From assembly GCA_017857245.1 (NCBI GenBank), contig JAFMDO010000009.1, positions 1 through 38,052 of the forward strand: 38,052 nucleotides of DNA. Reading direction: 5' to 3'. Positions 1 through 20,758 of this stretch are shown piece by piece. The first letter of the stretch is position 1. The number at the start of each line of letters is the position of its first letter. The position numbers and the translations under genes are program-made. The DNA is from Pontimonas sp. (GTDB lineage Bacteria; Actinomycetota; Actinomycetes; Actinomycetales; Microbacteriaceae). The notes below the pieces were generated by a model. It did no database searches, was not told the origin of the DNA, and saw nothing but the letters and a program-made list of their open reading frames with translations.

Positions 1-159
1 GATTCCCCTCGGGGGGCAATAGTCGCGCCGGCTGGGACGGTGGAGACCGCTTTGGCTTTACTCGGAATCCCGAACACCGCTAGGCATCAGCCGTTTTCTC
101 CCGCGGGGGTCGGGGGTGAGCGAATACTGTTTTCACTCCTTCGTGAACAGCATTACTAA
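1..159 (+). CDS. C-terminal fragment of an unidentified protein (5' end outside window)
   Basis: The first base of the window opens a frame that stays open for 52 codons and stops at TAA 157-159. The encoded tail is protein-like, with an Ala/Gly/Pro-rich stretch (APAGTVETALALLGIP) followed by a charged end (LLREQHY). The frame uses mostly G/C-ending codons, as the neighbouring genes do. I do not recognise the family, and the fragment is too short to assign. It converges on egtD, and the two 3' ends would overlap by 27 bases, a pattern seen at several other convergent pairs in this window. It could also be a chance open frame, since only the tail can be seen. Confidence 0.4.
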   Translation, partial: DSPRGAIVAPAGTVETALALLGIPNTARHQPFSPAGVGGERILFSLLREQHY

Positions 160-1077
160 AAAGTCTTCCTTGACGTCTGAGAAGGCCCTCGCCACACTCA
201 GGCTGGACCCCAACACTTCTTGGGTGATTGATTCTCGGGTGAACTTGTGTGAAGTTTCGACCAATACTCGGTCACCAACCCCGAACGACAGCGTGGTATC
301 CAGTGAGGGAATTGTCATCACTGTTGGCTGGTTTGCAACGAGGGACATTTCTACTCTTGACTCTTCGTCTACCCAGCTGGCGTGGTAGTCGAAATGCTCG
401 TCGAACACCGTGGCTCCCCAACGCTTGCGGGCAACGTTCACAATGTTTCTGATGAATTTCTCGGTGACTCCGGAGCGGTCGTAGTAGGCAGCAATGAGTC
501 GGTCGCGGGATTTAATGAGGTCAACGCCGAGAAGGAAAAAGTCTCCCGGCTCGATGGCTGCGCAGACCCGGGCGAGAAACTCCGCTCTCTCTAATCGGTC
601 GAGATTTCCGAGGGTGCCACCGAGAAACAACACGAGTCGAGCAGGCTCCCCTTGCGTGAAGGGCATTCTGTCCGCAAAGTCGGCCTGGATGGGTCGCACC
701 GTGACATGCGGCAGTGTCTTGGCCATGGAGGATTCAATGTGTTCGAGATAGGTCGTGCTGATATCCACGGGGATAAATTCGTGTCCTGAATCACGCATGC
801 CAAGTTCGCGAAGCAGAATGCTGCTCTTTTCCGGGGATCCGGCCCCCAGCTCGATGACTGTCTTCGCCTGTGTCAAATCGGCGATAGCCGCGGCGTGCTC
901 AGTGAGAATTCCGCGCTCCGTCCGGGTGGGGTAGTACTCCGGGAGCCGAGTGATGTGCTCATACAGCTCAGATCCTCGTTGGTCGTAGAGCCATTTTGGT
1001 GGGATTTGCGGGGGTGTGCGTGATAGCCACGACCTGAGCTGGTCACCCTCTGAGAAACTCAGTGGCTCAGCGGGCAA
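133..1077 (-). CDS. egtD: L-histidine N-alpha-methyltransferase EgtD
   Basis: EgtD transfers three methyl groups from SAM to the alpha-amino group of histidine, giving hercynine, the first step of ergothioneine synthesis in the cytoplasm. Visible family features are PPKWLYDQRG followed by EYYPTRTER (about residues 47-55), the SAM-binding ELGAGSPEKS (about 76-85), FLGGTLGN, GVDLIK, the substrate-contacting Asn in FIRN (about 211) and the C-terminal E-T-S-x-K-F (Glu about 274), matching the Glu/Ser pair that binds the histidine amino group in mycobacterial EgtD. The frame is open much further upstream, but that part overlaps the conserved end of egtB. I chose TTG at 1077, which gives 314 residues (about 320 is usual) and overlaps the egtB stop by a few bases; TTG at 1149 is the alternative. 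It is the second gene of an egtB-egtD operon. Function is confident, start is not. Confidence 0.9.
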   Translation of the reverse strand: MPAEPLSFSEGDQLRSWLSRTPPQIPPKWLYDQRGSELYEHITRLPEYYPTRTERGILTEHAAAIADLTQAKTVIELGAGSPEKSSILLRELGMRDSGHEFIPVDISTTYLEHIESSMAKTLPHVTVRPIQADFADRMPFTQGEPARLVLFLGGTLGNLDRLERAEFLARVCAAIEPGDFFLLGVDLIKSRDRLIAAYYDRSGVTEKFIRNIVNVARKRWGATVFDEHFDYHASWVDEESRVEMSLVANQPTVMTIPSLDTTLSFGVGDRVLVETSHKFTRESITQEVLGSSLSVARAFSDVKEDFLVMLFTKE

Positions 1078-2329
1078 GACGAATTCCGGAATAGAGCCAT
1101 CTGCTTTCGGGGGAGAAGAAATTGCGATAGGTGAGGCGTGTGTGACCAACTGGCGTGATGCAGCTTCCGCCACGGAGCACCATTTGGCCCGACATGAATT
1201 TGCCGTTGTACTCCCCAAGCGAGCCGTCCGCAGGGATGAAACCGGGGTAAGGCAGGTAGGCAGATTGGGTCCACTGCCATAACGTGTCAAATGTCTGAAC
1301 CAGAGCCCCAGTCTTCCTTGAAGCCTTGGGAGTGAGTCCGGTGATTCCAAAAGGGTGTTCTGAGGGCAACCCTTCGGGTGGCGGTGTGTGGGTGGCGACA
1401 GCATGTTCCCACTCCGCTTCAGTAGGCAGCCTGGCCCCTTTCCACCGCGCAAAGGCATCTGCTTCGAAGTAGCTGACATGACTAACGGGGTTACCCGGAT
1501 CTACCGACAGATTCCCGTGGTGTGTGTAGTGGTGCCAGCCACCTTCATGATGTGTCCAGTACAGCGGCGCACGCCATTGCTGGTCGTTCACCGCTTTCCA
1601 GCCCGCCGAGAGCCAAAGCTCGTGGCGGTCATACCCGCCATCGTTCATGAACTCTAGCCAGTCACCATTGGTCACAAGGTGGCTAGCAATTTCGAAATCA
1701 TTCAAGAACACCTGATGAGAGGGCTTCTCGTTATCAAACCCAAATTCTTCCCGATGGGGGTCCTGGCCAATTTTGACCACCCCGCCACTCACGGGTACCC
1801 AGGACCCGAGCGAGCGAGGCGGGGTTTTCTCCGCAGGTGGCTCGGGGTAAATCGAGGGATTCAGGGGGTTCAGCGAGAGAGCGTGCTTTATGTCCATTAA
1901 GAGCAGTTCAAGGTGCTGCTGCTCGTGTTCAAGACCAATTTCAACTAGCTCGTGGGGCGCATCAGGTTCGGCGGTAATTAGTTCCAGGACTTTGGCATCG
2001 ATCACCTCTCGATACCGAGTGATGGCTGCAGCATCGGGGCGAGTGATCAGGCCGCGGTGAGAGCGCGGGTGCATAGCCCCCACCGATTCGTAGTAGCTAT
2101 TGAAGAGCACGTCGTAGCCAGCAAACTCGTCGCCAACACGCCGCTTTCCACCTCCGACCACGAAAGTGTCAAAAAACCAGGTGGTGTGAGCTCGGTGCCA
2201 TTTTGTCGGGCTGGCATCGGGCATCGACTGGATCGTCTGGTCGGCCTCACCGAGCGCCGAAGCTGCTCTCTCGGTGCGAGCTCTTACCGCTCGAAAACGC
2301 TCAGCCAAGGGGGTGATGTCTGGGGTCAC
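1067..2329 (-). CDS. egtB: Ergothioneine sulfoxide synthase EgtB (KWHxAHTTWFF type)
   Basis: EgtB is a non-haem iron oxygenase that joins a thiol donor to the imidazole C2 of hercynine. This 420-residue protein has the two usual domains. The first is an N-terminal DinB-like four-helix domain with the iron ligands in KWHRAH (His48) and HEQQHLE (His135, His139). The second is a C-terminal FGE-sulfatase (formylglycine-generating-like) domain from about residue 175, ending in the typical LRGGSC...RLTYRNFF...GIRLAR. The sequences SPTKWHRAHTTWFF and FNSYYESVG resemble the EgtB group found widely outside mycobacteria, some members of which use cysteine directly, rather than the mycobacterial gamma-glutamylcysteine type. 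No egtA or egtC lies beside it, which fits. The start is GTG, with an AGGAC-like site 10-14 bases upstream. egtD follows directly and overlaps it. Confidence 0.92.
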   Translation of the reverse strand: MTPDITPLAERFRAVRARTERAASALGEADQTIQSMPDASPTKWHRAHTTWFFDTFVVGGGKRRVGDEFAGYDVLFNSYYESVGAMHPRSHRGLITRPDAAAITRYREVIDAKVLELITAEPDAPHELVEIGLEHEQQHLELLLMDIKHALSLNPLNPSIYPEPPAEKTPPRSLGSWVPVSGGVVKIGQDPHREEFGFDNEKPSHQVFLNDFEIASHLVTNGDWLEFMNDGGYDRHELWLSAGWKAVNDQQWRAPLYWTHHEGGWHHYTHHGNLSVDPGNPVSHVSYFEADAFARWKGARLPTEAEWEHAVATHTPPPEGLPSEHPFGITGLTPKASRKTGALVQTFDTLWQWTQSAYLPYPGFIPADGSLGEYNGKFMSGQMVLRGGSCITPVGHTRLTYRNFFSPESRWLYSGIRLAR

Positions 2330-2700
2330 GATGTTTTGTCCTGAACCTCTGTAGCGGAATTAAACACCAGGCTACCCGGCATGTGGAGCGAGGCACCTGG
2401 GAGACTCCTTGGAGCCGCATCGCACCCGGTTGTCAATAGGAAATCACTTCCCCGCCTGGCAACAAAGCCCAAACCTCGGGGTACCTAAGAACGCGAGTGG
2501 CTAGGACCTTGGAAAAACCCGTCACTGTGAGCAGATGTGCGGAGGTCACTGCGACACGGTCAAGCCTCAAGAGAAGTGTGCTTCAGACACACTGCGCCCC
2601 CAGAGAGGCTCCTTGGCTCATCTCGAGATTCCTTTCTCCGCTAGGGCGAGTGCGATCGCGCGGCACAACTAAGGTGTATCTCAGACGGGGGAAAATCACC
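2330..2700. other. Intergenic region between egtB and the channel gene
   Basis: This is a 371-base divergent spacer that must hold the promoters of egtBD (minus) and the channel gene (plus). I see no convincing gene in it; the frame that runs into the channel gene from 2497 gives a low-complexity, Arg/Ser-rich translation and is probably not coding. A short inverted repeat, AGTGTG (2575-2580) with CACACT (2588-2593) and a 7-base loop, could be an operator half-site pair or chance. A TTTAAT on the minus strand about 40 bases upstream of egtB is a possible -10 element. Confidence 0.4.
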
Positions 2701-3384
2701 ATGCCAGACACAGCAAAAATAGTATTGAGAGCAGAAAGAATTCGGCGCTTCAGCAAGAAGTCTGAATTTTCTCTCATGGTCCTCGGATTCCTGTATTTAG
2801 CGGTTTACTCCGTGCAAGTGCTGGTTCAGCCCCCGGGAGAGATTATGGGGGTATTGAACCTCACGAACACCGCAATCTACAGTATTTTTTTGCTCGATCT
2901 TCTCTTACGATTCACTGTTGAAATTCCTCAATTTCGCAAATTGTCTGGCTGGGTCACTTTTTTTAAGCACAATTGGTTGAGTATTCTCGCAGCGCTCGGT
3001 CCCCATTTCCGCGGTCTCCGGGTTCTTCAGGTCCTGATTGTGCTTCGTGGCGTTGCCCCCTACATGGTGAATCGCTCCCAACGGGTCGGCCTCATTATCG
3101 GCGTGACACTTCCACTGGTGCTTTACACGGCAGCGCTCTCTGCCCTTGAGGCAGAGCGCGGAGTCGAAGGAAGCAACATCAACACCTTTGGAGATGCGGT
3201 GTGGTGGAGTGTAGTGAGCGTCACTACCGTCGGTTACGGCGATTCTTATCCGGTCACGACAGACGGACGCGTAGTAGCCGGTTTGTTGATGTTTTTGGGA
3301 ATCGCGCTGTTTTCTTCTCTCACTGCTCTTATTGCGGCGTGGGTTGTTGAGGGGCACAACGAATCCAAAGATTCCCCAAAGTAG
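2701..3384 (+). CDS. Voltage-gated-like potassium channel
   Basis: This is a 227-residue membrane protein with the K+ selectivity filter TTVGYGD (filter core residues 176-180), preceded by a pore helix (AVWWSVVSV) and followed by a hydrophobic last helix (about 192-215). The N-terminal half has about four hydrophobic segments (roughly 24-43, 53-72, 92-100 with 105-117, and 130-148), so it resembles a 6-TM Kv-type subunit that would form a tetramer in the plasma membrane. The region where S4 should lie (about 103-117) has only three arginines, so voltage sensing may be weak or absent. The start ATG at 2701 is preceded by GGGGGAAAA as a Shine-Dalgarno-like run. The short C-terminus carries no visible RCK/TrkA domain. 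It is divergent from egtB and convergent with the GNAT gene. Confidence 0.85.
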   Translation: MPDTAKIVLRAERIRRFSKKSEFSLMVLGFLYLAVYSVQVLVQPPGEIMGVLNLTNTAIYSIFLLDLLLRFTVEIPQFRKLSGWVTFFKHNWLSILAALGPHFRGLRVLQVLIVLRGVAPYMVNRSQRVGLIIGVTLPLVLYTAALSALEAERGVEGSNINTFGDAVWWSVVSVTTVGYGDSYPVTTDGRVVAGLLMFLGIALFSSLTALIAAWVVEGHNESKDSPK

Positions 3385-3402
3385 TCACGATAAGCAGCAT
3401 CA

Positions 3403-3425
3403 GGGCCCCGCAGGAAGCGCGGGCC
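3403..3425. terminator. GC-rich hairpin between convergent genes
   Basis: GGCCCCGC pairs with GCGGGCC, with one bulged C and a short loop. It lies in the 52-base gap between the 3' ends of the channel gene and the GNAT gene, where a bidirectional terminator would be expected. It has no clear T tract, so intrinsic termination is only suggested. Confidence 0.35.
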
Positions 3426-3436
3426 ATGCCACATCT

Positions 3437-4495
3437 TTAGTGGTTCGCGCCCGTCCTTGTGAGATCGCCGACTACGTATTCTAAAAGTGAGCGCCCAAAA
3501 TCTGATCCCGTAGCGATGTCGTCTTGATGAATATCGATGTTGTGCAACGACTGAAGTCGCATCACATCTCCACCCATGTGTCGGTTAGGAAAAACACCAG
3601 CAAACCCAAACGGTAACTCCGTATCCATCGCCTCGAGAGCTATTTCGGTTCGTGGGTCTTCGAGGGAGAAGTCAATGTACACCGCGTCTCGGTGGTCCTG
3701 GAAAACTAGCCGGTCTCGTGTCGTGGCTAGTACCTCGGCCAGGTCCTCGCCTGATTCGAGCACCGACACCGTAGCGAGATTGTGGTCGGCTATTTCATGC
3801 ACCACGATGCGTGATGAACGCGCTACGTGGGCGGTGGAGGGTAGAGCTTGGATAATTCCGTGGATGCCAGTGGCGTCAACTATTGCGGAGATAACCTCGC
3901 GATGGCGATCCGGCGCGTATAGAGGCCGGTCGGGGCCGTCATTAGTTTTTAGATAAAAGAGCGCTACCGATTCACGGTGAGCAGTTCGGCTGGCTGCCGC
4001 ACTGTTGCTAACGCTCTTGGGAATCCATCCGAGCAGAAAACCAGACTCAACCGCGCCCAAGTCGATATTGGCTTTTTGGCTATAGGGATGTGCCGCGGTG
4101 GCTTCACTGAAAATCCCGAGAAAATCAGCTGATTGGGCCCAATCAGCTCCGTATTTTTTCATCCGAGTGAAGAGGTGCTGGCCCCGGGCCCTCTCGGTCA
4201 CGACAGCAACACCTGCGTGAAGTACCGGCGTTCTCTGCTCTCCCATCATCAACGCCATATGGCCCAGGGGGGTCCCATCTGTGAGGCGCGCAATGATGCT
4301 CTTCGTCTCTCCTGCCACTATTCGGCGGGCAATTTCGTCTTCTTCGTATACCCACGGCGAATCGTAGGAGTCGCCGTAGACCTCTTTTACGAGGTGAACC
4401 AACAGGTGGGAGTCTTCTGGATCTAGAAACAGAATTTCTACCCCCTGTTGGCCTTCCACCTGTGCCTGGATGTCATGTACGTTTCGGGAGGCCAC
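3437..4495 (-). CDS. GNAT-family N-acetyltransferase
   Basis: This is a 352-residue cytoplasmic protein. The N-terminal half has a GNAT fold signature: LGHMALMM (beta4), then AGVAVVTERARGQHLFTRM, where R-A-R-G-Q-H matches the acetyl-CoA pyrophosphate-binding Q/R-x-x-G-x-G/A loop. The C-terminal half may be a second, degenerate GNAT-like domain (IDFSLEDPRTEIALEAM, FGFAGVFPN). The substrate is unknown. An open frame extends to GTG 4519, but I place the start at GTG 4495, because TATCAT ends exactly six bases before it, the arrangement seen at a dozen other genes here. It is divergent from the racemase/OCD-family pair and shares a 290-base regulatory region with it, so it may act in the same imino-acid pathway; that is inference. 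Confidence 0.75.
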   Translation of the reverse strand: MASRNVHDIQAQVEGQQGVEILFLDPEDSHLLVHLVKEVYGDSYDSPWVYEEDEIARRIVAGETKSIIARLTDGTPLGHMALMMGEQRTPVLHAGVAVVTERARGQHLFTRMKKYGADWAQSADFLGIFSEATAAHPYSQKANIDLGAVESGFLLGWIPKSVSNSAAASRTAHRESVALFYLKTNDGPDRPLYAPDRHREVISAIVDATGIHGIIQALPSTAHVARSSRIVVHEIADHNLATVSVLESGEDLAEVLATTRDRLVFQDHRDAVYIDFSLEDPRTEIALEAMDTELPFGFAGVFPNRHMGGDVMRLQSLHNIDIHQDDIATGSDFGRSLLEYVVGDLTRTGANH

Positions 4496-4501
4496 GTCCC
4501 G

Positions 4502-4507
4502 ATGATA
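4502..4507 (-). promoter_or_regulatory. -10 element TATCAT of the GNAT gene (leaderless)
   Basis: TATCAT ends six bases before GTG 4495. With transcription starting about seven bases downstream of the -10 box, the mRNA would begin at the start codon. No clear -35 is visible. This site supports 4495 over the upstream GTG at 4519. Confidence 0.6.
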
Positions 4508-4773
4508 CGCGTCTCTCACAGGGCCACACGCCGCAAAAAATCATCGCACCCACAATTCGGGCCAGCTAGTGGCAGACCCTGAGCATCCCCAGCGCTGTGG
4601 GCAATCAAATGTCAAAAATTGTTAAGTGGACAAAGCGTTACCAATCTGGAGGTTGGGGGTTGAATGTCTCTGGGCGTGCAATTCACAGTGAGCGGCGACT
4701 TACCTGAAACGCCCTCTTCAAGCCAGCTTATTTTCTCTCATAAGCCGCAGCTGCGTTCCTATTGCGCGGCGAT

Positions 4774-4779
4774 TAGACT
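4774..4779 (+). promoter_or_regulatory. -10 element TAGACT of the racemase-family gene (leaderless)
   Basis: TAGACT is followed by six bases (AACCAA) and then ATG 4786. No Shine-Dalgarno sequence precedes this ATG, so a leaderless mRNA is likely. Confidence 0.6.
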
Positions 4780-4785
4780 AACCAA

Positions 4786-5811
4786 ATGCCAGGTCCCCTT
4801 GCAAGCGTGTCCGCGACGGATTACCACACGGCTGGCGAGCCTTTCCGCATCGTGAGCAAAAATTTGCCCTCTTTACTGGGGCGCACCGTTCTTGATAAGC
4901 GAGCCCATGCGTTGGCCAACGAAAAACTCGAGGCAATACGGAAACTTTTGGTAAATGAACCGCGTGGACACGCGGATATGTACGGTGGCTTCATTGTCGA
5001 GCCAAACGATGAGGGTGCCCATTTTGGGGTGCTGTTCTGGCATGGTGACGGATATTCCACGGCATGCGGGCATGGGACCATTGCCCTCGGCGCATGGGCT
5101 ATTGATGCAGGGATTGTCCCAGCAAATCCTGACGGGGACACCACGGTCACGATCGACGTTCCCTCGGGCAGGGTGCACGCCCTGGTGAAGCAGAAAGAGG
5201 GGATAATCCGGGAGATTTCCTTTAAAAACGTGTTTTCGCATGTGGTTGCGACAGAAGTGCCGATCACTTTAGATTCCGGGAGGGAGATAACGGTTGACAT
5301 TGCTTATGGTGGAGCCAATTACGCCAGTGTCGCGGCCGCGACCATAGGAACTTCGCTTGATCCGAAAAACCTGGACGAGCTGATCCGCGCGGGCAGGGAA
5401 ATCAAGCAGAAACTCCAACTAGCGCCGGAGTCTCACTCGCATGCTGACGAGAGACTCAATGGAATTTACGGCACCATCATCTACGAAGAGGTTGCGGCTT
5501 CTGCCACGGAAATTCACCAGAAGAATGTCACCATTTATGCCGATGGGAGAGTAGACCGATCACCTTGTGGCTCGGGCACCGCGGCGCGAATCGCGCAGCT
5601 GGAAAGTATGGGGTCCCTCAAAATGGGAATGGCACTAACTCACGACTCAATCGTGGGAACCAGGTTTCGGGGTTATATTGAATCGCTTCACACCGAAGCC
5701 AGCCAGCGTGGGGTTTTCCCCGTAATTTCGGGCCTCGCTTCGAAAACGTCAGATTCAGTATTTCAACTATTCCCTGACGATGAACTTCCTGAAGGGTTCT
5801 CGCTCCGTTGA
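4786..5811 (+). CDS. Proline racemase-family protein (likely hydroxyproline epimerase or proline racemase)
   Basis: This 341-residue member of the proline racemase superfamily has DYHTAGEP near the start and both catalytic loops: STACGHG with Cys94 and DRSPCGSGTAAR with Cys261. Characterised superfamily members with Cys at both sites are proline racemases or 4-hydroxyproline 2-epimerases, while trans-3-hydroxyproline dehydratases carry Thr at the second site. The residues therefore favour 1,1-proton-transfer racemase or epimerase activity on an imino acid. The downstream ornithine-cyclodeaminase-family gene, however, is the usual partner of the dehydratase, so the assignment is open. Start is ATG 4786, supported by a -10 box six bases upstream; GTG 4807 is an alternative. 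The stop TGA overlaps the TTG start of the next gene (TTGA), so the two are translationally coupled. Confidence 0.85.
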   Translation: MPGPLASVSATDYHTAGEPFRIVSKNLPSLLGRTVLDKRAHALANEKLEAIRKLLVNEPRGHADMYGGFIVEPNDEGAHFGVLFWHGDGYSTACGHGTIALGAWAIDAGIVPANPDGDTTVTIDVPSGRVHALVKQKEGIIREISFKNVFSHVVATEVPITLDSGREITVDIAYGGANYASVAAATIGTSLDPKNLDELIRAGREIKQKLQLAPESHSHADERLNGIYGTIIYEEVAASATEIHQKNVTIYADGRVDRSPCGSGTAARIAQLESMGSLKMGMALTHDSIVGTRFRGYIESLHTEASQRGVFPVISGLASKTSDSVFQLFPDDELPEGFSLR

Positions 5812-6731
5812 GTGCCATTCGTTGGGTTACGGAAACTGAACTCCTCGATGCTTTTGGTTACGCACGGGGAATCGATGCAATCAACCAAACCCTGTCGCGA
5901 GGGTTTGATCCAGCCCAGGATAAGAAGAGAATGATTTTGGACTTTTCCTCCGGCCAAGGGCTGGTCATGCCCAGTGAAGAAGGAAAATTTGCAGGCCTGA
6001 AATTTGTCACCGTCACTCCCGGAAATCGAGACCGGAATTTGCCCCGAATCCAGGGAATTTACACCTTGTTGGATTCAGCAACGCTGACCCCTCTTGCGCA
6101 ATGTGACGGAGCAGCCCTCACCCTCCTTCGTACATCCTGCGTAACGACCGCAACGCTGAGCAAAATTGGGACCAAGAATTTACCGCGGGTTTTTGTTTTT
6201 GGGTCTGGCCCCCAGGCTTTGGCCCATATCCTCGCTCTGTCAGAAATAAGTACTCCTCGTGAAGTGTTCGTTCGTGCCCGGAACGTGGGGGGCGTAGGGC
6301 TTTTTCTGGAAGAACTGACATCGCGAGGCTTCTCAGCGCGCGCAGGCTCGGACAAAGATTTGGCAACATCTGACATTGTCATCCTGGCAACAACCGCTCG
6401 TCAGCCACTACTCTCACCGTCGCAACTCAAGAAAGACGCAGTTGTCGCGGCAGTGGGTTCACACGAATCAGACGCACGAGAACTACCCGGTGAACTTTTC
6501 GCCGACAGCCAGGTCTTCGTGGAGGATATCGATGTGGCCCTGCGTGAAGCAGGGGACGTAATTATGGCAATGGACGAGGGCTACATCACGCGTGAGGGTA
6601 TCGTTGAAATGAAAGCCCTCTTTAGTGGTGGAGTGCACCCTACTCTCCACTCACGGCGGGTCTATAAATCTGTGGGCATGCCATGGCAGGACTTGTCAGT
6701 GTTCGGCGCAGCATACGAATTTTTGTCCTGA
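5808..6731 (+). CDS. Ornithine cyclodeaminase/mu-crystallin-family protein
   Basis: This 307-residue OCD/mu-crystallin-family enzyme has a Rossmann NAD(P)-binding loop GSGPQA (residues 132-137). Other family-typical segments are GLKFVTVTPGN (about 63-73), a ring-contact region ALTLLRTSCVTTATLS (about 103-118) and the C-terminal SVGMPWQDLSV. Family members include ornithine cyclodeaminase, ketimine reductase, alanine dehydrogenase and delta1-pyrroline-2-carboxylate reductase. Next to a proline racemase-family gene the last is the most likely role (pyrroline-2-carboxylate to L-proline), though this is from context. The start is TTG 5808, overlapping the upstream stop codon by a TTGA junction; no other start fits this frame without losing the conserved N-terminus. 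It converges on the interrupted lipoprotein frame downstream. Confidence 0.85.
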   Translation: MSAIRWVTETELLDAFGYARGIDAINQTLSRGFDPAQDKKRMILDFSSGQGLVMPSEEGKFAGLKFVTVTPGNRDRNLPRIQGIYTLLDSATLTPLAQCDGAALTLLRTSCVTTATLSKIGTKNLPRVFVFGSGPQALAHILALSEISTPREVFVRARNVGGVGLFLEELTSRGFSARAGSDKDLATSDIVILATTARQPLLSPSQLKKDAVVAAVGSHESDARELPGELFADSQVFVEDIDVALREAGDVIMAMDEGYITREGIVEMKALFSGGVHPTLHSRRVYKSVGMPWQDLSVFGAAYEFLS

Positions 6732-6822
6732 GTGGCGCAGTCCAAACCGCCTGCGGGTTGAGCTGGGCACCCTTTAGCGGTAACGACCCAGACAAGGCGC
6801 AAATCATGACGCAATGCCCTGT

Positions 6823-7323
6823 TTACAGGAGCAGGAAGCCGATGCGCCATGCATCGAGATTGGCTCTCGGAAGAATAGCTTTCACCCCGACAATCACGCC
6901 AGTCACCGGGGCAGTATCGTCTGCAAAGTCGGGCGGTTCGGGAGCGGCATACTGACTGGCTCCCATCACAAAAATTTGACCATCGTCGAGATTGAACACC
7001 AGTTTTCAGAGCCGGTCTTCTTCGTCCACACCGTCGAGTGTGAAATCCAGCGTGGTCACCTGCACGAAAAGTTCGCCGACGATGTTTCCCTCTGCGTTGC
7101 GAATCTTGGCAGCAAAAAATGGAACGGGACCATTGGTGTTGGGTTTGAAATCGGGGTCAGGGTCGGTCGCGAGATCTGGACCATCTTGGGGAAAAGTAAA
7201 GGAAGCGATTGAAGTGCCGCTCACACACCCAGCCACCAGCAACACCGCGATAGCGGCTATGGCCATCACAGTTGAAACCCGTCGTGACACTCACCGCACC
7301 ACTTTTTTGCCCGTGTACTTCAT
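6823..7323 (-). pseudogene. Lipoprotein with two in-frame TGA codons; possible AOC/dirigent-like barrel
   Basis: The frame starts at ATG 7323, nine bases after a strong GAAAGG site, and reaches TAA at 6823-6825. It contains TGA at codon 11 (7291-7293) and again at 7006-7008, with no frameshift. GTG 7288-7290, right after the first TGA, could restart translation and gives a 94-residue piece with a lipoprotein signal (hydrophobic run, then LLVAGC lipobox). The 60 codons after the second TGA read as protein (LVFNLDDGQIFVMGASQY, then TGVIVGVKAILPR). The pattern EGNIVGELF ... LDDGQI ... VTGVIVG resembles allene-oxide-cyclase/dirigent-like beta barrels common in actinobacteria, at low confidence. 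Nonsense mutations, read-through, or sequencing errors at Trp or Cys codons are all possible. Other genes here use TGA as a normal stop, so this is not a general recoding. Confidence 0.6.
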
Positions 7324-7672
7324 CAGTTGGGGCCTTTCAATTCTGTGGTCACGGTGACGGGCACCACGAACGCTCAGGAGAAATCTTTAGTCCGTGCGGG
7401 CGCAGGCTGCGAAGTCCGCAACCTTTGCCCTTCCTTTGGCAGCGCACCATATTCTTCTCCAGGCTTTGGGTCCCTTTTTGTTCGTCTCAGACGCGCGAAC
7501 CTGGGGAAAATAGCCCGCTTCACCGCAGTGCTCCGCTTTTATCCCCCGGTGCTGATTTGGCACGTGACTGTTCGCGGCACGACAAAATCAAGAGTGGGGA
7601 AAGTCAGGAATCAGAGGCTTCGAGCGCAGAGAAAAGAGGCACAACGAGTACTCCGAGTGAATCACGCCAGCT
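7324..7672. other. Intergenic region upstream of the interrupted lipoprotein frame
   Basis: This is a 349-base stretch between the 3' end of the dehydrogenase gene and the start of the lipoprotein frame, both on the minus strand. The only site I can support is the GAAAGG ribosome binding site (plus-strand CCTTTC at 7333-7338) before ATG 7323. Plus-strand open frames here give Arg/Ser-rich translations without family features. TAAAGA on the minus strand, roughly 60 bases upstream of the ATG, is a possible -10 element. Confidence 0.4.
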
Positions 7673-8707
7673 CTACAAGGACTCGTTGACGGCGCAACTT
7701 GCGGCCAACAGAGCAGAGCGTTCATCATTTTCAATTTCCTCATTAATGGCCATGGACCAGCCCATTGTGTCCGCTACGACGGGCACGGCAAGCGGGCCGG
7801 TAAGGCCACCCATCTCACCCGCCAAAACTATCTGGGCCGGAATTACTACTTGGTGCCCGTGTGCGAGAAATTCCACTACGTCGACCACGGCGTGGGCAGT
7901 TGCAAGCTCAGTGGTGCGGCCCGCTGTGAAGTGGGTAAAGAAGGGCTTAACCGCTGCGCGGATGTCCGGGGGGTGACCCTCAATGAACTCGTAGGCACCG
8001 GCGACGTCTTCGGCATAAACCAATTTCAGCATTTCACTTCTGGCCGCCCGTATTTCCTCGGGCAGTTGCGCCAATTTGCGTCCCTCGCGCGCAACTCCAA
8101 CAACGTCAGCCAGCATCTGATCACTCACGCCGCGAGCGCTGATGCGACTCCAAATGGGGACCAAGTGGTCACCGTGCTGTCCCCACATCTGGGCAGATAC
8201 TGCTGGCCGGCGCAGGCCGAGGTCGCGCGCTAGTTCACGCCTGAACCTGAGCGAGTCTGACCACGCGGCTGCCCCTATGACCCGTTGGCGCGGTAGCCAT
8301 TGAGTGAAAGCTTGCACCGCCAATTCGATGGGGTTTGATTGCACAACCACAGTGACCGGGTTCGGCATTTGCCCGACAGCTGATGCTGCGGCTTCAAATA
8401 TTTTTCGGTTGGTTTCAGCAAGTGCCGCACGATCTTTAGTTTCCCTTGTCACGGTCGCGCCGGCCATCATCACCACTAAATCGGCACCGGAGGTGGCTAC
8501 GTCGGTCCCAATTACGACTTTTGGCGCTTTATCAGCGAAGGCATCCTGAAGGTCCGCACGCAACCCCCAGAGCTCGGATTGGTGGGGCCCACCTTCGTGA
8601 CCTATGAGGTGAAGCGTTGCGGTCTCGGGGAGCAGCGCCCGCTCCAGCAGCTGCGCAGCCACTTGTCGGCCACAACTGCCAGTAGCCCCCAAGATTGCGA
8701 TGTTCAC
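7673..8707 (-). CDS. Lactate/malate dehydrogenase-family protein
   Basis: This 344-residue NAD-dependent 2-hydroxyacid dehydrogenase homologue has an N-terminal dinucleotide loop GATGSCG (residues 7-13), VVMMAGATVTRE (about 79-90), SNPIEL (125-130), SDSLRFR (151-157, substrate and proton-relay side chains) and GQHGD containing the catalytic His179. The expected reaction is interconversion of a 2-hydroxy acid and a 2-oxo acid using NAD(H). The loop residues do not let me choose malate over lactate, and the sequence is divergent enough that it could use another substrate. The start is GTG 8707, with TAGGGT ending six bases upstream, so a leaderless mRNA is likely. It appears to be monocistronic. 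Confidence 0.8.
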   Translation of the reverse strand: MNIAILGATGSCGRQVAAQLLERALLPETATLHLIGHEGGPHQSELWGLRADLQDAFADKAPKVVIGTDVATSGADLVVMMAGATVTRETKDRAALAETNRKIFEAAASAVGQMPNPVTVVVQSNPIELAVQAFTQWLPRQRVIGAAAWSDSLRFRRELARDLGLRRPAVSAQMWGQHGDHLVPIWSRISARGVSDQMLADVVGVAREGRKLAQLPEEIRAARSEMLKLVYAEDVAGAYEFIEGHPPDIRAAVKPFFTHFTAGRTTELATAHAVVDVVEFLAHGHQVVIPAQIVLAGEMGGLTGPLAVPVVADTMGWSMAINEEIENDERSALLAASCAVNESL

Positions 8708-8713
8708 TGCCCA

Positions 8714-8719
8714 ACCCTA
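8714..8719 (-). promoter_or_regulatory. -10 element TAGGGT of the dehydrogenase gene (leaderless)
   Basis: TAGGGT, six bases (TGGGCA), then GTG 8707. It shows the same geometry as the other leaderless starts in the window. Confidence 0.55.
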
Positions 8720-8866
8720 CAAGGAAAGCGCGGTGACACATCCGGAGGCTGTGCATCCAAAAAGTCGGTGAGACCTGAAGTATGTTCGGGAAGGGGGCTT
8801 CTGCGCTTCCTCCATTTCTCTTCGGAGAACCCCTCGATATCCGCCGTCACGCTGCTGCTCCGGCCC

Positions 8867-8887
8867 CGGTCGCCCTTTAGGGCACCG
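8867..8887. terminator. Hairpin CGGT-C-GCCC / GGGC-ACCG
   Basis: An eight-pair stem with one bulged C and a TTTA loop lies 99 bases downstream of the stop of the small membrane protein gene (minus strand). There is no T tract, so it may be a terminator helper or an mRNA 3' stabiliser. Confidence 0.35.
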
Positions 8888-8985
8888 ACTGTTTCTCTGC
8901 CTGCGGGGCAAAGCAGCCTGGGATTACCACTTTCGTTCTCTCGGAAAAACGCCGAATCACATGAGGCCGTGCGGCTTTGGCTTTG

Positions 8986-9342
8986 TTACAAAAGAATCAG
9001 GGAAAACCCAACATTCAGGCCGATAACCACAAAGACGCTTATTCCCATCATCAGAGACCAGGGCTGAGACTGAAACCATTCGCTGAACGGAGTCCCTTTC
9101 ACTTCCTCGGGGATGCTCTTGGAGATAAATTTGAGGCGGGTTACCGTCGCGGTGAGGACCGATAACACAAAAATTGAGATTGACACAGACGCAATCAGTA
9201 TCCCGAGACCAGCGCTCTCATCAGATAATGCGCCCGCAATGGGAACCCCCACCCCGAGGATGGCTAGGACCATGGCGCTGCGGGTTGTGAAATGCACTTG
9301 GTCTCGCAAAATACTCGTGTACCACACCATTTTTTCGGACAA
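8986..9342 (-). CDS. Small membrane protein, function unknown
   Basis: This is a 118-residue protein with three hydrophobic segments: about residues 22-40 (AMVLAILGVGVPIAG), 44-65 (GLGILIASVSISIFVLSVL) and 98-118 at the C-terminus. A basic stretch (TRLKFISKSIPEEVKG) lies between the second and third. I do not recognise a family. I chose TTG 9342 because AAGGAG sits nine bases before it. TTG 9378 and ATG 9330 are alternatives, but neither has as good a site. It stands alone, with long spacers on both sides. A regulator-like or accessory membrane role cannot be told from the sequence. Confidence 0.6.
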   Translation of the reverse strand: MSEKMVWYTSILRDQVHFTTRSAMVLAILGVGVPIAGALSDESAGLGILIASVSISIFVLSVLTATVTRLKFISKSIPEEVKGTPFSEWFQSQPWSLMMGISVFVVIGLNVGFSLILL

Positions 9343-9817
9343 ACCGACCAGCTCCTTATTTTTCCAGGCGAAAGGCAACGCTACAGGGCCTAATTTTTTG
9401 GGGATTATTCGAAAATCCTTTGCCCAACCTGACAGAGCCTAACAGCCCACTTCATTCGCACACATGGCCGATTGCGCTCACCCGTGGTGCTGATGTCAGT
9501 GGGTACTTCAGTCACCAGCAGGGTGTTCCTGACATCTCCTGACTCTCCGTGGTGCCTCAACTTTCCCAAAATCGGGAAAAATAGCTCGTTTCAGGCGTTT
9601 TAGGTAACTACGGCTCAGTTGCTGAGCGGTTCGAATCAATTTGGGCGCCGCCGGGGGTATTGCCATCGGCTAATGGGTGGTGCGTTTCGTGTTGTCGGCG
9701 CATTCGTAGAGTTCGTTCGCCTCCGCGGGCTCACACGATTCTGCTTTCCGAGGCTGCAACCGCTCAGAGGACAGAGTAGAGTGCACTGCATATTCAGATA
9801 ATCGAAAGGTTGTCCCA
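9343..9817. other. Intergenic region with two hairpins
   Basis: This is a 475-base divergent spacer between the small membrane protein and the propeller lipoprotein, with no gene I can support. It has two clean inverted repeats: TTTCCC (9562-9567) with GGGAAA (9574-9579), and GCTCAG (9613-9618) with CTGAGC (9622-9627) around a TTG loop. The sequence GGTTCGAATC just after the second is like a tRNA T-loop but lacks a pairing stem. Near the right end, TAGAGT (9776-9781) or GATAAT are possible -10 elements for the lipoprotein gene, which has a GAAAGG ribosome binding site. Confidence 0.4.
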
Positions 9818-10792
9818 ATGCTGAAAGCCTCCTCGATAGCGCTTTCCGCGTCACTGTTCCTTGCTCTTCTCGGAGGGTGCCAAGCAACGGACCCAGGTCT
9901 TGAAGCACCAATCCCCGTCGCTACCGAAGACTCACCCCAGGTGGAGGCAGTCGCGAATGCTTTCACCTTTGAGTTGGGTTCCAGTATCGGAATTGAGGGA
10001 GTTTCTCCTGAGTTGATAGCGCTTCCCGAGGGTGGGTATCTCTTGTTTGTGACCGGCCTCGGAGAAGACAGGGTCTATCGCTCCGATGACGCAATCACCT
10101 TTGCCCCTGAGCCGAGTGTGCAGGTTCCTATGGGGAGTGATTACTCGCTTCTCCAAAAACCCGATGGAACCTGGTTGCTTTACTACGTGATGATGGAAGG
10201 TGCGCCGGGTGAACCGGGTGAACCGGGCGAACCGATGGATCCAGCCACGGCGAAGAAGGCCGTAATGGTGTCTGCCTCACAGGACCTGCGAACCTTCGCG
10301 CAGGGCTCATCCACTGGGATTAGTCAACAGACTGCGGACCGTGCCTGGGGCGTCCCTGACACATATATCGGACCCGATGGAACATATCGAATGATGTGGG
10401 TTGACAAAGCAGTAGGCCAAAACTGGGAGGTGTTGCGCACCGCATCATCTTCCGATGGGCTTTCTTTCACCGCTGATGAGGACTTTGTGATTTCGGATGG
10501 TTATGTGGACCCATTCATGATGAGAGCCGAGGAAGGTGACTGGCTTTTGCTGTTATCGACCACACCGGGGAGGCTTCCGCAAAAGATTTTTGTGGCAACA
10601 TCGCCAGATGGCATCACGTGGGATATTCCAAAATCACCACTCCTAGAAGCATCGGATCGAAACTATCTCGACCCTACTGCTGTTGAAACCTCTGAAGGGG
10701 TGTGGCAGGTGATTTTAAGTACGGTGCCGCTGGCCGACGCACTATCCGGACCCTACGAGTACGTCTCGGGTGTTTTCACCGAAACTCCCTAA
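9818..10792 (+). CDS. Lipoprotein with sialidase/GH43-like beta-propeller repeats
   Basis: This 324-residue predicted lipoprotein has a signal peptide ending in the lipobox LLGGC (Cys21), so it is probably anchored on the outer face of the membrane. The mature part has repeated strand-turn motifs of the S-x-D-G-x-x-F/W type (YRSDDAITF, VSASQDLRTF, SSSDGLSF, TSPDGITW) typical of sialidase, BNR or GH43-like propellers. A short collagen-like run (GAPGEPGEPGEP) sits near residues 128-139. I see no catalytic triad I can name with confidence, so sugar binding or a structural role is as likely as glycosidase activity. The start is ATG 9818 with GAAAGG upstream. It converges on another propeller lipoprotein, and the pairing suggests related cell-surface roles. 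Confidence 0.7.
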   Translation: MLKASSIALSASLFLALLGGCQATDPGLEAPIPVATEDSPQVEAVANAFTFELGSSIGIEGVSPELIALPEGGYLLFVTGLGEDRVYRSDDAITFAPEPSVQVPMGSDYSLLQKPDGTWLLYYVMMEGAPGEPGEPGEPMDPATAKKAVMVSASQDLRTFAQGSSTGISQQTADRAWGVPDTYIGPDGTYRMMWVDKAVGQNWEVLRTASSSDGLSFTADEDFVISDGYVDPFMMRAEEGDWLLLLSTTPGRLPQKIFVATSPDGITWDIPKSPLLEASDRNYLDPTAVETSEGVWQVILSTVPLADALSGPYEYVSGVFTETP

Positions 10793-10861
10793 GCCAAATC
10801 ACCGCTGGGCCGCGCTCACGGGAAGGGGCACTGGCGCACATTCTTGAGAGCGGAATAGAAG

Positions 10862-10878
10862 CTCCTCAACACGAGGAG
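10862..10878. terminator. Hairpin CTCCTC / GAGGAG between convergent lipoprotein genes
   Basis: CTCCTC (10862-10867) pairs with GAGGAG (10873-10878) around AACAC, in the 99-base gap between two convergent genes. It has no T tract, so it is a weak candidate for bidirectional termination. Confidence 0.3.
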
Positions 10879-10891
10879 TCCGCAAGGGAGG

Positions 10892-13105
10892 CTAACCCCC
10901 GTAGGCAAGAATCCGATTGGAGAACTTGAACTCTCCGACGTAGAGGTTTCCTGCGACTACCTCCACAGAGGCAGGAAAATAGAGTCCGTCAGCGGTAGTT
11001 TGCGGCCGATCACCTATCTCGCCGCCGATGATGCTAGCCGGTTCCTTGCCCGCTTGAGCATCGGCGAGGCTATCCCAAAGCTGGACGCGGTGAAAAGACG
11101 TGTCCGCAACCGCGAAACCAAAGGGTAAGAATTTTGCTTGTTGAGGGAGATTTGCTCGTATTGGCAGGGTTTGAGGACTGCCCCCGGCCTTGATGTCGGC
11201 CGTGAGCACCGCTGCACCCTCCTTGGGCGCGATGACTAAAACGCCATCTTTCATGTCGAGCCGGCCAGGGCCTTGAATCGAGTATGACCTGACGGGTTCA
11301 CCCGACTCATCTGGCAGTCCTTCGAAGACAGAAACCGTATTGGTTTGGCCATCGGAAATAGCGAGGTAAGTGCCGTCGTAGGCGACACCCTTAAGGTCCG
11401 AGAGCACCACGCTGCCGAGACTGCCCCGGTAAACGCTGGTGGGCAGGTCTCCGGGTGCAAAATTTTCCCATATAGCGAGGGAGTCTCGCCCGGCAATGAT
11501 GAGAGTGCCATCAGCGAACGTGTTATCCCAGGCTGGGAATCCCGTGAGGTAAATGTAGTCCGCTCCGGCGCCGTCTTCTCCTGGTGCCTCGTTCCACATA
11601 TATATTCGACGGTCATAGTCGCTCGTGGCCACGAGGGCGCCATTCGCGTTGACAAGCACAGGATTTTGAATGAATCCATCTCTCAGCAGAGTGGACACAT
11701 CAGGATCGGCATCAAAAACGGAGAAATCGGGAACTTTTCCGACAACGTCATCGGGGAGAGAGGTCCACCCCGTGACTCGGTTTCCGTTGTATTCGATGAA
11801 GTAGATTGCCTCCTCGGTGATGACGACGTCCCCTCCGTCGCCACCTAAGTAGCTGTGCGAGGTTGTGCTCATCAATGCCACGGTGTTTCTTACCTCTGAT
11901 TGAGCCGAGGGTTGCGAAGGATTCTGCGGTTGCGGGTCACCAGGTTGAGGGTCTCCCGGGGTGGGGGGTTCCCCTGGTGAGGCCGGGCCAGGCTGGTCTC
12001 CCTCTGGAGGAGGCCCACTCATTTCAGCGCCGGTTTGAAACTTACTCATCGCGGTTTGGTTGTCGGAAGGAAAATCTGGCCAATAGTGGGCATCTTGACC
12101 CCCGGCAGCGAGGGCAATCAGACCGTCGGGTCCGACATCACCCTGGTACCAATCCCAGATACATCCATCGGGATCACCGATAGGGAGACGATTGACCCAT
12201 ATGTGGGACTGCCGATTACGGTTTCCTAGCGCTTCGCCCCAACACTCTGCCTGGGATCCGTTCTCGTCACCGATAAGAAAGTTTGTTCCATCCGAGGTGA
12301 TGTTCCTCGGTGTGCCCACTCCTTGGGGTTTAGAAGTAAACGTTGGTCGGGAGTTTCCATCCAGCGGGAATGAATCCCACACCAAAATCGCTCCTCGCCT
12401 GGTATCCGTCACCACCAGGTTGGTGCCATCAGACCAAATTCCCCATGGCCATCCTTCCGCGTCACCCATCCCCGCGAAATCGATGGCAAAGTCGGCTTCA
12501 GCACCGTTTTCTGTCGGCACACTGCGATAGACCAGGATGCGGCCGTTCTCTGTGTCGGCGATCAAGAGTTTCCCATCAGGGGTCATCTCTACTGCGCCAG
12601 GCCAGTTCAAATCGGCCATTCCCGAACCTGGTGTTGTGTCGGTGAAGTTTGGCTGCCCCACTACTACGTCAGGTTCCGCGGGACCGGTCGGAAGGGTCGC
12701 AAAGATCAGGACTCGGTTGTTGAATCGGTCTGCCACGGCAAGGTGCTTTCCATCGGAAGCCCCGGACGCGGGGTGATTAAGTGTTGTTCCCGACTGTGTG
12801 GCGCCCACACCGTAGACCGAGAGGCCAAAATCTGCTGAGGTGGACGGGGCGGAGGTGAGCGATCCTGTTGATGCCTGATACGTGGCCGCCATCGGACAGA
12901 CTTCAAAATCGCCATCGTTTACCTGGATGATGTAACCGGCGGCAACCTGATCGCAGAGACCCAGTTCATCAACCTCAAGGGCCGAGTCTTGCGCCTGTTC
13001 AGAAGCGAGATCGTTCTTCCCCTCGACGTTTTCGGCGGTGCAGGCAGAGACAAAGAGCACCGCACTCGCGAAAACAACAAGAAGCCGCTGAGAAAGCCTC
13101 ACCAT
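10892..13105 (-). CDS. Large NHL-repeat-like beta-propeller lipoprotein
   Basis: This is a 737-residue predicted surface lipoprotein with a signal peptide ending at the lipobox FVSAC. It has at least five NHL-like repeats of the form L-x-V-A-D-x-x-N-x-R-V-L (LAVADRFNNRVLIF, LLIADTENGRILVY, LVVTDTRRGAILVW, LAISDGQTNTVSVF, and LYVGEFKFSNRILAY at the end). A Pro/Gly/Gln-rich linker (about residues 365-400) splits the repeats into two groups, so two propellers joined by a flexible link are likely. NHL propellers usually bind proteins or polymers; the ligand is unknown. ATG 13105 is preceded by TACACT with a six-base spacer, and an upstream extension of the frame to 13171 lacks a signal sequence, so I reject it. 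It ends in the convergent gap with the other propeller lipoprotein. Confidence 0.75.
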   Translation of the reverse strand: MVRLSQRLLVVFASAVLFVSACTAENVEGKNDLASEQAQDSALEVDELGLCDQVAAGYIIQVNDGDFEVCPMAATYQASTGSLTSAPSTSADFGLSVYGVGATQSGTTLNHPASGASDGKHLAVADRFNNRVLIFATLPTGPAEPDVVVGQPNFTDTTPGSGMADLNWPGAVEMTPDGKLLIADTENGRILVYRSVPTENGAEADFAIDFAGMGDAEGWPWGIWSDGTNLVVTDTRRGAILVWDSFPLDGNSRPTFTSKPQGVGTPRNITSDGTNFLIGDENGSQAECWGEALGNRNRQSHIWVNRLPIGDPDGCIWDWYQGDVGPDGLIALAAGGQDAHYWPDFPSDNQTAMSKFQTGAEMSGPPPEGDQPGPASPGEPPTPGDPQPGDPQPQNPSQPSAQSEVRNTVALMSTTSHSYLGGDGGDVVITEEAIYFIEYNGNRVTGWTSLPDDVVGKVPDFSVFDADPDVSTLLRDGFIQNPVLVNANGALVATSDYDRRIYMWNEAPGEDGAGADYIYLTGFPAWDNTFADGTLIIAGRDSLAIWENFAPGDLPTSVYRGSLGSVVLSDLKGVAYDGTYLAISDGQTNTVSVFEGLPDESGEPVRSYSIQGPGRLDMKDGVLVIAPKEGAAVLTADIKAGGSPQTLPIRANLPQQAKFLPFGFAVADTSFHRVQLWDSLADAQAGKEPASIIGGEIGDRPQTTADGLYFPASVEVVAGNLYVGEFKFSNRILAYGG

Positions 13106-13111
13106 GACCCG

Positions 13112-13117
13112 AGTGTA
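13112..13117 (-). promoter_or_regulatory. -10 element TACACT of the NHL lipoprotein (leaderless)
   Basis: TACACT, six bases (CGGGTC), then ATG 13105. It lies in the 37-base gap after the hydrolase gene, so the lipoprotein can be transcribed on its own. Confidence 0.55.
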
Positions 13118-18879: not shown

Positions 18880-18965
18880 GGGGATTGATTCAGTGCTTGC
18901 TAACACCTTCCCGCCAGGCGTGGTGGGCTAGCGTTAGTCAAGATTTGGCCAGAAAAGGACATTCC

Positions 18966-19934
18966 GTGAGTGCAGCATTTATTGAGGCCCAGAACCTCGT
19001 CAAGACATACCAAGCGGGCAAAAAGACGGTCATTGCTTTGGACGATCTCTCCCTGAGTGTGCCCAAGGGTAGTGTCCAAGCGCTGCTGGGTCCCAACGGT
19101 GCGGGGAAGACAACGACCGTCAAAGTGCTCACCACTTTGACCACGCCCGATTCGGGCCAGGCAAGAATTGATGGGATCGATGTTTTAGAACACCCCGAAC
19201 AGATTCGACGGATGATCGGCGTGAGTGGGCAATATGCGGCGGTGGATGAAAACCTGACGGGGTTTGAAAACCTGGATATGGTCGGCAGGCTTTATCACCT
19301 CAGCCCTGCAGCATCGAGGGCTAGAGCGCGAGAGCTCATTGAGATGTTTGACTTGGTGGAGGCTGGGGACCGAGTGGTGAAGGGTTTTTCCGGGGGGATG
19401 CGGCGACGCATTGACCTCGCAGGCGCTTTGGTGGTGAATCCTCCCGTGCTGTTTCTTGATGAACCAACGACGGGTCTTGACCCGAGAAGCCGCCTAGCGC
19501 TGTGGGATGTCATCAAGAAACTGGTTGGAGAAGGAACGACAGTCCTCCTCACCACCCAATACCTGGAAGAAGCCGACCAATTGGCGGACAACATCGCTGT
19601 GATTGATGAAGGCAAAGTGATTGCCCAAGGAACCAGCGACGAATTGAAGCTGTTGGTGGGCGGTCAACGCGTGGAAATCACGATTCAACACCTGGAAGAT
19701 CGAAGCGCAGCAATTTCTGTCCTCGAGCGCCATGTGAACGGTGACATCACCTTCGCTGCGGATGAGCGCACGCTGGTCGGGCCTGTCGACAATGCAGCCA
19801 AGACCCTGCAAGCGGTCCTCAAGGGTTTGGCGGATGCCGGAGTTGAACTCAACGACGCGGGAATGCGGCGCCCCACCCTCGATGATGTTTTCCTCCAACT
19901 CACCGGTCACGCAGCGGAAGAAGTCACAGCATGA
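18966..19934 (+). CDS. ABC exporter ATP-binding protein, DrrA type
   Basis: This is a 322-residue ATPase subunit. It has Walker A GPNGAGKT (42-49), Q-loop GVSGQYAAVDENLTG, signature FSGGMRRR (141-148), Walker B VLFLDEPTTGLD (161-172) and TTQYLEEAD, where Gln replaces the H-loop His, as is usual in the daunorubicin-resistance DrrA subfamily. The C-terminal 90 residues form the DrrA-associated domain. GTG 18966 follows AAGGA closely; a much longer upstream frame is unlikely to be coding because it runs antisense through the amidotransferase gene. The stop overlaps the permease start (ATGA). The substrate is unknown; the family exports drugs, lipids or polymers. TAGCGT at 18929-18934 is a possible -10 element, giving a short leader. 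Confidence 0.9.
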   Translation: MSAAFIEAQNLVKTYQAGKKTVIALDDLSLSVPKGSVQALLGPNGAGKTTTVKVLTTLTTPDSGQARIDGIDVLEHPEQIRRMIGVSGQYAAVDENLTGFENLDMVGRLYHLSPAASRARARELIEMFDLVEAGDRVVKGFSGGMRRRIDLAGALVVNPPVLFLDEPTTGLDPRSRLALWDVIKKLVGEGTTVLLTTQYLEEADQLADNIAVIDEGKVIAQGTSDELKLLVGGQRVEITIQHLEDRSAAISVLERHVNGDITFAADERTLVGPVDNAAKTLQAVLKGLADAGVELNDAGMRRPTLDDVFLQLTGHAAEEVTA

Positions 19935-20758
19935 GCCAGATTACGGTCGCTCCGGGCACGCCGCTTTCTCGTTTTCTTTCCGATGGCTGGGTGACCACCA
20001 GGCGAAACCTTCTCAAAATCAGACGCGTTCCCGACATTTTGGTTTTTACGCTGATTCAGCCGATTATGTTCGTGCTGCTCTTTACCTACGTCTATGGCGG
20101 CGTGATTGATATTCCCGGTAGCTCCTATGTGGAGTTCCTGATGGCAGGAATTTTCGCCCAAACCGTCGTGTTTGGCTCGACCTACTCAGGCTCTGCGATG
20201 GCGCAAGACCTGAAGGACGGAATTATTGACAGGTTCCGCACCCTCCCGATGAGCCCTGCTGCCGTCTTGGTGGGGCGCACGAACGGAGACATGCTGATCA
20301 ACGCAAGCTCCATGGCCGTCATGATGCTGACCGGGTTCATTGTGGGCTGGCGAATCCGCTCCAGCCCCACGGAGGCTCTGTTTGCTGTGGTGTTGCTTCT
20401 TCTCTTTGCTTATTCGTTCTCCTGGGTGATGGCGTTCATCGGGATGAGTGTTCGAAGCCCTGAAGTGATCAACAACGTGTCGTTCCTGATTTTGTTTCCC
20501 CTCACCTTCATTTCCAACGCTTTTGTTCCCTCCGACACTCTTCCCACCCCCTTGCGGGTCTTTGCGGAATGGAATCCTGTGTCCGCTCTGGTTCAAGCAG
20601 CGAGGGAGCTCTTTGGCAACGTTCCCCCAGGTATCCCCGTGGGAGATACCTGGACAGCTCAGAATCCTGTTGCCACAGTGTTAATCGGTATGGCGGTCAT
20701 GTTGGCAATCTTTGTGCCGCTCTCCATAAGAAAATTCCAATCGATTAGCTCGCGATAA
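19931..20758 (+). CDS. ABC-2 type permease, DrrB type
   Basis: This is the 275-residue membrane subunit of the exporter. About six hydrophobic segments are visible: the first near residues 34-55 ([21 protein letters not shown]), others around 66-84, 112-135, 143-165, 173-190 and the last at 249-265. The region [16 protein letters not shown] matches the ABC-2 coupling region. The ATG overlaps the DrrA-type stop by four bases, so the two subunits are co-translated in fixed ratio. Together they should form an inner-membrane exporter. No regulator or resistance enzyme is next to it, so the cargo is not known. Confidence 0.9.

Follow-up and report, generated by a model that had tools for sequence, protein, structure and literature searches.

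A lipoprotein gene of the AOC_like barrel family in Pontimonas, probably interrupted by a recent nonsense change

In a survey of pseudogenes with a single nonsense change, in-frame stops without other decay were reported to be common, to be partly under purifying selection, and possibly to be subject to read-through more frequently than annotations take for granted (PMC7918605). The case for read-through in that survey was built on a conserved stop together with dN/dS downstream of it. Programmed recoding of UGA, as selenocysteine or as Trp, also places a UGA within a homologous frame, and the form of tRNA-Trp that reads UGA has a 4-bp anticodon stem (PMC13092985). The protein families closest to the gene described below are the allene-oxide-cyclase-like (AOC_like, PF18678) and bacterial dirigent-like (PF03018) proteins. 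Their DG-x-I-x-x-x-G strand is also present in this gene, and a GGTG motif shows remarkable conservation among plant dirigents as well as bacterial dirigent-like proteins (PMC9344732).

The DNA analysed here (the window, 38,052 nt) is a whole contig of the 1.28-Mb draft genome, in 77 contigs and 97.7% complete, of a marine-type actinobacterium of the genus Pontimonas. Like the surveyed pseudogenes, the minus-strand gene at 6823-7323 has a homologous frame that is open except for a single in-frame stop, but this stop is found in no relative. In contrast to the programmed recoding systems no SelA was found, there is no tRNA change, the homologues have neither Cys nor Trp, and TGA is a normal stop. 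Unlike the AOC_like and dirigent-like proteins, the gene product has no Pfam match and no GGTG-x-Y, and its frame holds an in-frame TGA. We consider it likely that a nonsense change has recently interrupted an accessory AOC_like-barrel lipoprotein gene, at codon 95 if GTG 7290 is codon 1.

Reading frame and family assignment

Retranslation of the minus strand from ATG 7323 to TAA 6823 gave 164 sense codons and two in-frame TGA codons, at 7291-7293 and 7006-7008, exactly as in the original prediction, and these two are the only stops within the frame. A Shine-Dalgarno-like GAAAGG (7333-7338) lies 9 nt before ATG 7323. The first TGA ends a ten-codon ORF (MKYTGKKVVR, 7291-7323) that abuts GTG 7290. 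From this GTG, 94 codons (7009-7290) encode a lipoprotein signal, VSRRVSTVMAIAAIAVLLVAGC, and the first half of an AOC_like barrel, as supported by profile, codon usage and homologue N-termini. After the second TGA the domain continues in the same frame for 60 codons (6826-7005), a half that contains LVFNLDDGQIFVMGASQY and is supported by profile and codon usage. The TAA at 6823-6825 closes the read-through frame, and the coding signal ends there.

Codon usage was scored with a model trained on 32 window genes. Upstream of TGA 7006-7008 the score was 0.308 bits per codon (94 codons), downstream of it 0.387 bits per codon (60 codons), values reached by none of 341 and none of 849 open off-frame stretches of equal length, respectively. 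The downstream value corresponds to the 97.5th percentile among real coding stretches, the median of which is 0.24, and directly past the TAA the score drops to about -0.28. The reading frame from GTG 7290 to TAA 6823 is real, with coding-like codon usage both before and after TGA 7006-7008. Two antisense ORFs on the plus strand (6814-7212 and 6992-7357) were rejected, since their codon signal falls below that of the minus frame and homology lends them no support.

A family-wide search with the window protein, the TGA being entered as X, returned distant relatives of 161-173 residues, free of stops, in Microbacteriaceae, and a profile-style scan added further homologues. Most family-level matches outside G211, G412 and G342 were discarded as signal peptide alone or unrelated proteins (L019 is a sugar-binding protein). 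Six distinct uninterrupted homologues were used: L032, L033 (on the contig of L010), L034 (on the contig of L009), L035, L036 and L012. Their profile matched the read-through frame with 50.9 bits in an alignment that crosses TGA 7006-7008 without a gap. Scored separately, the parts before and after this TGA obtained 18.4 and 19.7 bits, so that each half matches the same family independently, in agreement with the earlier proposal of a single protein across the second TGA.

The homologues in the collections searched were remote, none exceeding about 35% identity, and no relative of the window protein was found in plasmids, in viral contigs, in genome contigs (single-sequence query) or, by sequence, in the PDB. 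The protein matched no Pfam family, PF18678 included, and received no name from NCBIfam, where its sole match was a sub-threshold signal peptide. Among the homologues, L012 matches PF18678 with 33.3 bits, above the cut-off of 25.9, and L010 and L009 score below the cut-off. L036 is predicted to fold as a barrel, and the solved structures that resemble it best are those of pyocyanin demethylase, Diels-Alderases and plant allene oxide cyclases. Four of the six homologues, like the window gene, have a lipoprotein signal that includes a lipobox Cys. In the window gene the lipobox is LVAGC with Cys as residue 22 from GTG 7290; L009/L034, L032, L033 and L035 have an LTGC lipobox at residues 20-22. 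Homology thus assigns the window gene to a lipoprotein branch of the AOC_like beta-barrel. The lipobox Cys and the 50.9-bit match bear out the lipoprotein with a barrel-like domain that had been proposed from the sequence.

The closely similar AOC_like lipoproteins of L032 and L035 come from metagenome-assembled genomes with a proteobacterial label, pointing to either lateral transfer or misbinning in this small family. In an uncultured member of the Microbacteriaceae (L009, 14-1970) the intact AOC_like lipoprotein gene comes after a two-gene ABC exporter. The exporter proteins closely resemble those encoded at 18939-20758 of the window, where the lipoprotein gene lies 11 kb from the exporter.

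The window gene departs from the family at its C-terminus, where the alignment shows VIVGVKAILPRANLDAWRIGFLLL (6826-6897) in place of I-V-G-G-T-G-x-Y-x-G-x-R-G-E and the last strands. After VIVG the family continues with G-G-T-G-x-Y-x-G-x-R-G-E and two closing strands and the window gene with VKAILPRANLDAWRIGFLLL, so that VIVGVKAILPR occupies the place of the GGTG-x-Y-x-G motif, of which GGTG-x-Y is near-invariant. When the tail was compared with the homologue tails, none of the three frames matched above shuffled controls. The last 20 codons before the TAA score 0.336 bits per codon in frame 0, a value equalled by 0.85% of open off-frame 20-codon stretches. Since the other two frames match no homologue tail and codon usage stays in frame 0 up to the TAA, a frameshift near VIVG was rejected and we read the departure as an in-frame deletion or as divergence. 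AlphaFold confidence at the C-terminus was about 30 for the read-through protein versus 70-86 for the intact homologue L036, in both cases to be read with the very shallow alignments in mind. Because GGTG-x-Y-x-G and the closing strands are missing, with no frame matching them, we have filed the window gene as a divergent or damaged AOC_like relative rather than a functional member.

The first TGA and the start of the protein

In the alignment the homologue N-termini fall near GTG 7290, their lipobox Cys being residue 20-22. Since the homologues begin at about this position, TGA 7291-7293 probably lies just upstream of the protein, which would start at GTG 7290. The original prediction had placed both TGA codons inside one protein, and for the first of them this is not supported.

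The ribosome-binding site before ATG 7323 was correctly described as strong, and it is rare: of the 1013 ATGs in the window, only 11 are preceded by a strict Shine-Dalgarno match at such spacing. It is also well placed, and for these reasons a leader ORF, or a second lesion, is kept in consideration. Ribosomes that start at ATG 7323 might terminate at the first TGA and then reinitiate on GTG 7290, which adjoins it (TGAGTG); the ten-codon ORF would then encode a leader peptide, the first TGA would be functional and only the second would be a lesion. We regard this as possible, albeit on balance doubtful. It is favoured by the rarity of GAAAGG at 9 nt and by use of the identical hexamer, with 8 nt spacing, at the lipoprotein gene at 9818, by the lack of a comparable strict site at GTG 7290 itself (-4.2 versus -7.2 kcal/mol), and by the homologue N-termini and the distance to Cys-22, which point to GTG 7290 as the protein start. 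On the other hand, most strict Shine-Dalgarno sites of the window precede ORFs that are not genes, and the N-regions of signal peptides are unconserved, so that a former start at ATG 7323 followed by a second nonsense change fits equally well. The ten-codon ORF is too short for a verdict from codon usage, with 10% of open off-frame stretches scoring equally high. The leader concerns the first TGA only and is compatible with nonsense loss at the second.

The second TGA and its interpretation

At the column of TGA 7006-7008 the homologues carry Leu (CTC, four of six) or Arg (CGT, two of six), and none of the six has TGA. With sense codons in the homologues and a gap-free profile alignment, the comparison indicates that this TGA interrupts a genuine homologous frame. 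It had been proposed beforehand that sense codons in homologues would mark a nonsense-mutated gene, and by that reasoning the gene is one.

We propose that a nonsense change at this codon 95 cut the lipoprotein gene recently. Translation from GTG 7290 would then give a product of 94 residues, consisting of the signal peptide and the first half-barrel, which should not fold. The frame downstream would still be coding-like on account of too little time for decay, and the GGTG motif and final strands would have been lost before, or together with, the nonsense change. Nonsense loss is favoured because both halves match one family without a change of frame, with coding-like codon usage up to the TAA, because all six homologues are uninterrupted with Leu or Arg at the TGA column, and because the conserved motif is missing and the C-terminal model is poor next to that of an intact homologue. 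Against it count the finding of neither a frameshift nor another stop type in the frame, a coding signal that downstream of the TGA ranks with the highest normal values, as it also would in a translated gene, the lack of homologues above about 35% identity in the collections searched, and the draft state of the genome. The absence of other stops and frameshifts had been noted at the outset, and it stands for stops and frame; the protein as read is nevertheless not whole, since it has neither the conserved GGTG motif nor the final barrel strands. With this motif lost and no homologue keeping the TGA, the earlier hint that the intact frame speaks against decay is not supported.

One alternative is that the gene is really open, the TGA stemming from an error in assembly or base calling, or from an allele of a minority strain that entered the draft consensus. 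A single base decides the matter in a 77-contig draft genome, and the frame downstream of TGA 7006-7008 is undecayed. However, the 38-kb contig shows no sign of poor quality, the neighbouring genes are open, and one wrong base would leave the C-terminal departure from the family unexplained, and we hold an artefact to be unlikely.

UGA is leaky in bacteria, and near-cognate tRNA-Trp might sometimes decode UGA 7006-7008, so that the lipoprotein would be made both in a short form and at full length. Neither the frame nor the coding signal is damaged on either side of the TGA, as natural read-through of this kind would predict, and in-frame stops without other decay are reported to be common and partly under purifying selection (PMC7918605). 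The TGA is followed by A; a T in this place would, according to PMC5289835, strengthen termination. Yet no homologue has TGA at this position, the residues there are Leu or Arg and not Trp, and the absence of the family's most conserved motif from the C-terminus makes the long form itself doubtful. RNA structure downstream of TGA 7006-7008 was unremarkable (z 0.13), the anticodon stem of tRNA-Trp(CCA) is of the canonical 5-bp and not the 4-bp form, and SelA had no match in the 97.7%-complete genome. These same three findings are a further reason to favour nonsense loss. Nothing supports natural read-through, which we hold to be very unlikely; if it were true, the gene would be a chromosomal example in actinobacteria. 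More improbable still is a combination of the coupled leader ORF with low-level read-through of UGA, giving a signal-bearing half-barrel plus a little full-length barrel.

Selenocysteine was rejected, there being no match to SelA in the genome and only Leu or Arg at the homologue column, and so was reassignment of UGA to Trp, given the ordinary tRNA-Trp and ordinary stop usage, TGA being the stop of 13 among the 32 window genes. The genome is indeed not recoded, as had been stated. Taken as a whole, the original prediction keeps its lipoprotein barrel, its one protein across the second TGA and its unrecoded genome, but finds no support for two TGA codons inside the protein or for the argument against decay.

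Genomic setting

From about 13.1 kb rightwards the contig is syntenic in relatives, and because of these genes we take it to belong to the genome. Positions 1-13100 had no match in eight syntenic relative regions, the rest of the contig being syntenic, and this left third looks like an accessory segment of the species. It carries egtD-like (133-1305) and egtB-like (1067-2329) genes of ergothioneine type, a proline racemase gene (4786-5811) and a gene for an NHL-repeat lipoprotein (10892-13117).

The AOC_like lipoprotein had no homologue at E <= 0.001 in 18 other genomes of the genus, and a looser limit gave weak matches of 0.06 or worse, which is explained if, as synteny indicates, the gene sits in an accessory segment of this Pontimonas species. 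Of the flanking genes, the LDH-like gene (7673-8707) had a weak partial match in one of the 18 genus members and the ornithine cyclodeaminase gene (5850-6731) had none. Absence or near absence of the gene and its flanks from the genus, while the backbone is syntenic, is another reason to favour nonsense loss. If that reading is true, the locus is an ordinary case of a small planktonic actinobacterial genome losing an accessory gene, and it puts on record a lipoprotein branch of the AOC/dirigent-like barrel that is small and scattered.

No Rfam family and no tRNA was found in the window. In three genus members (L060, L061 and L062) the matched stretch of a Maf-like gene includes a single TAG or TAA in frame; a shorter protein may simply end there.
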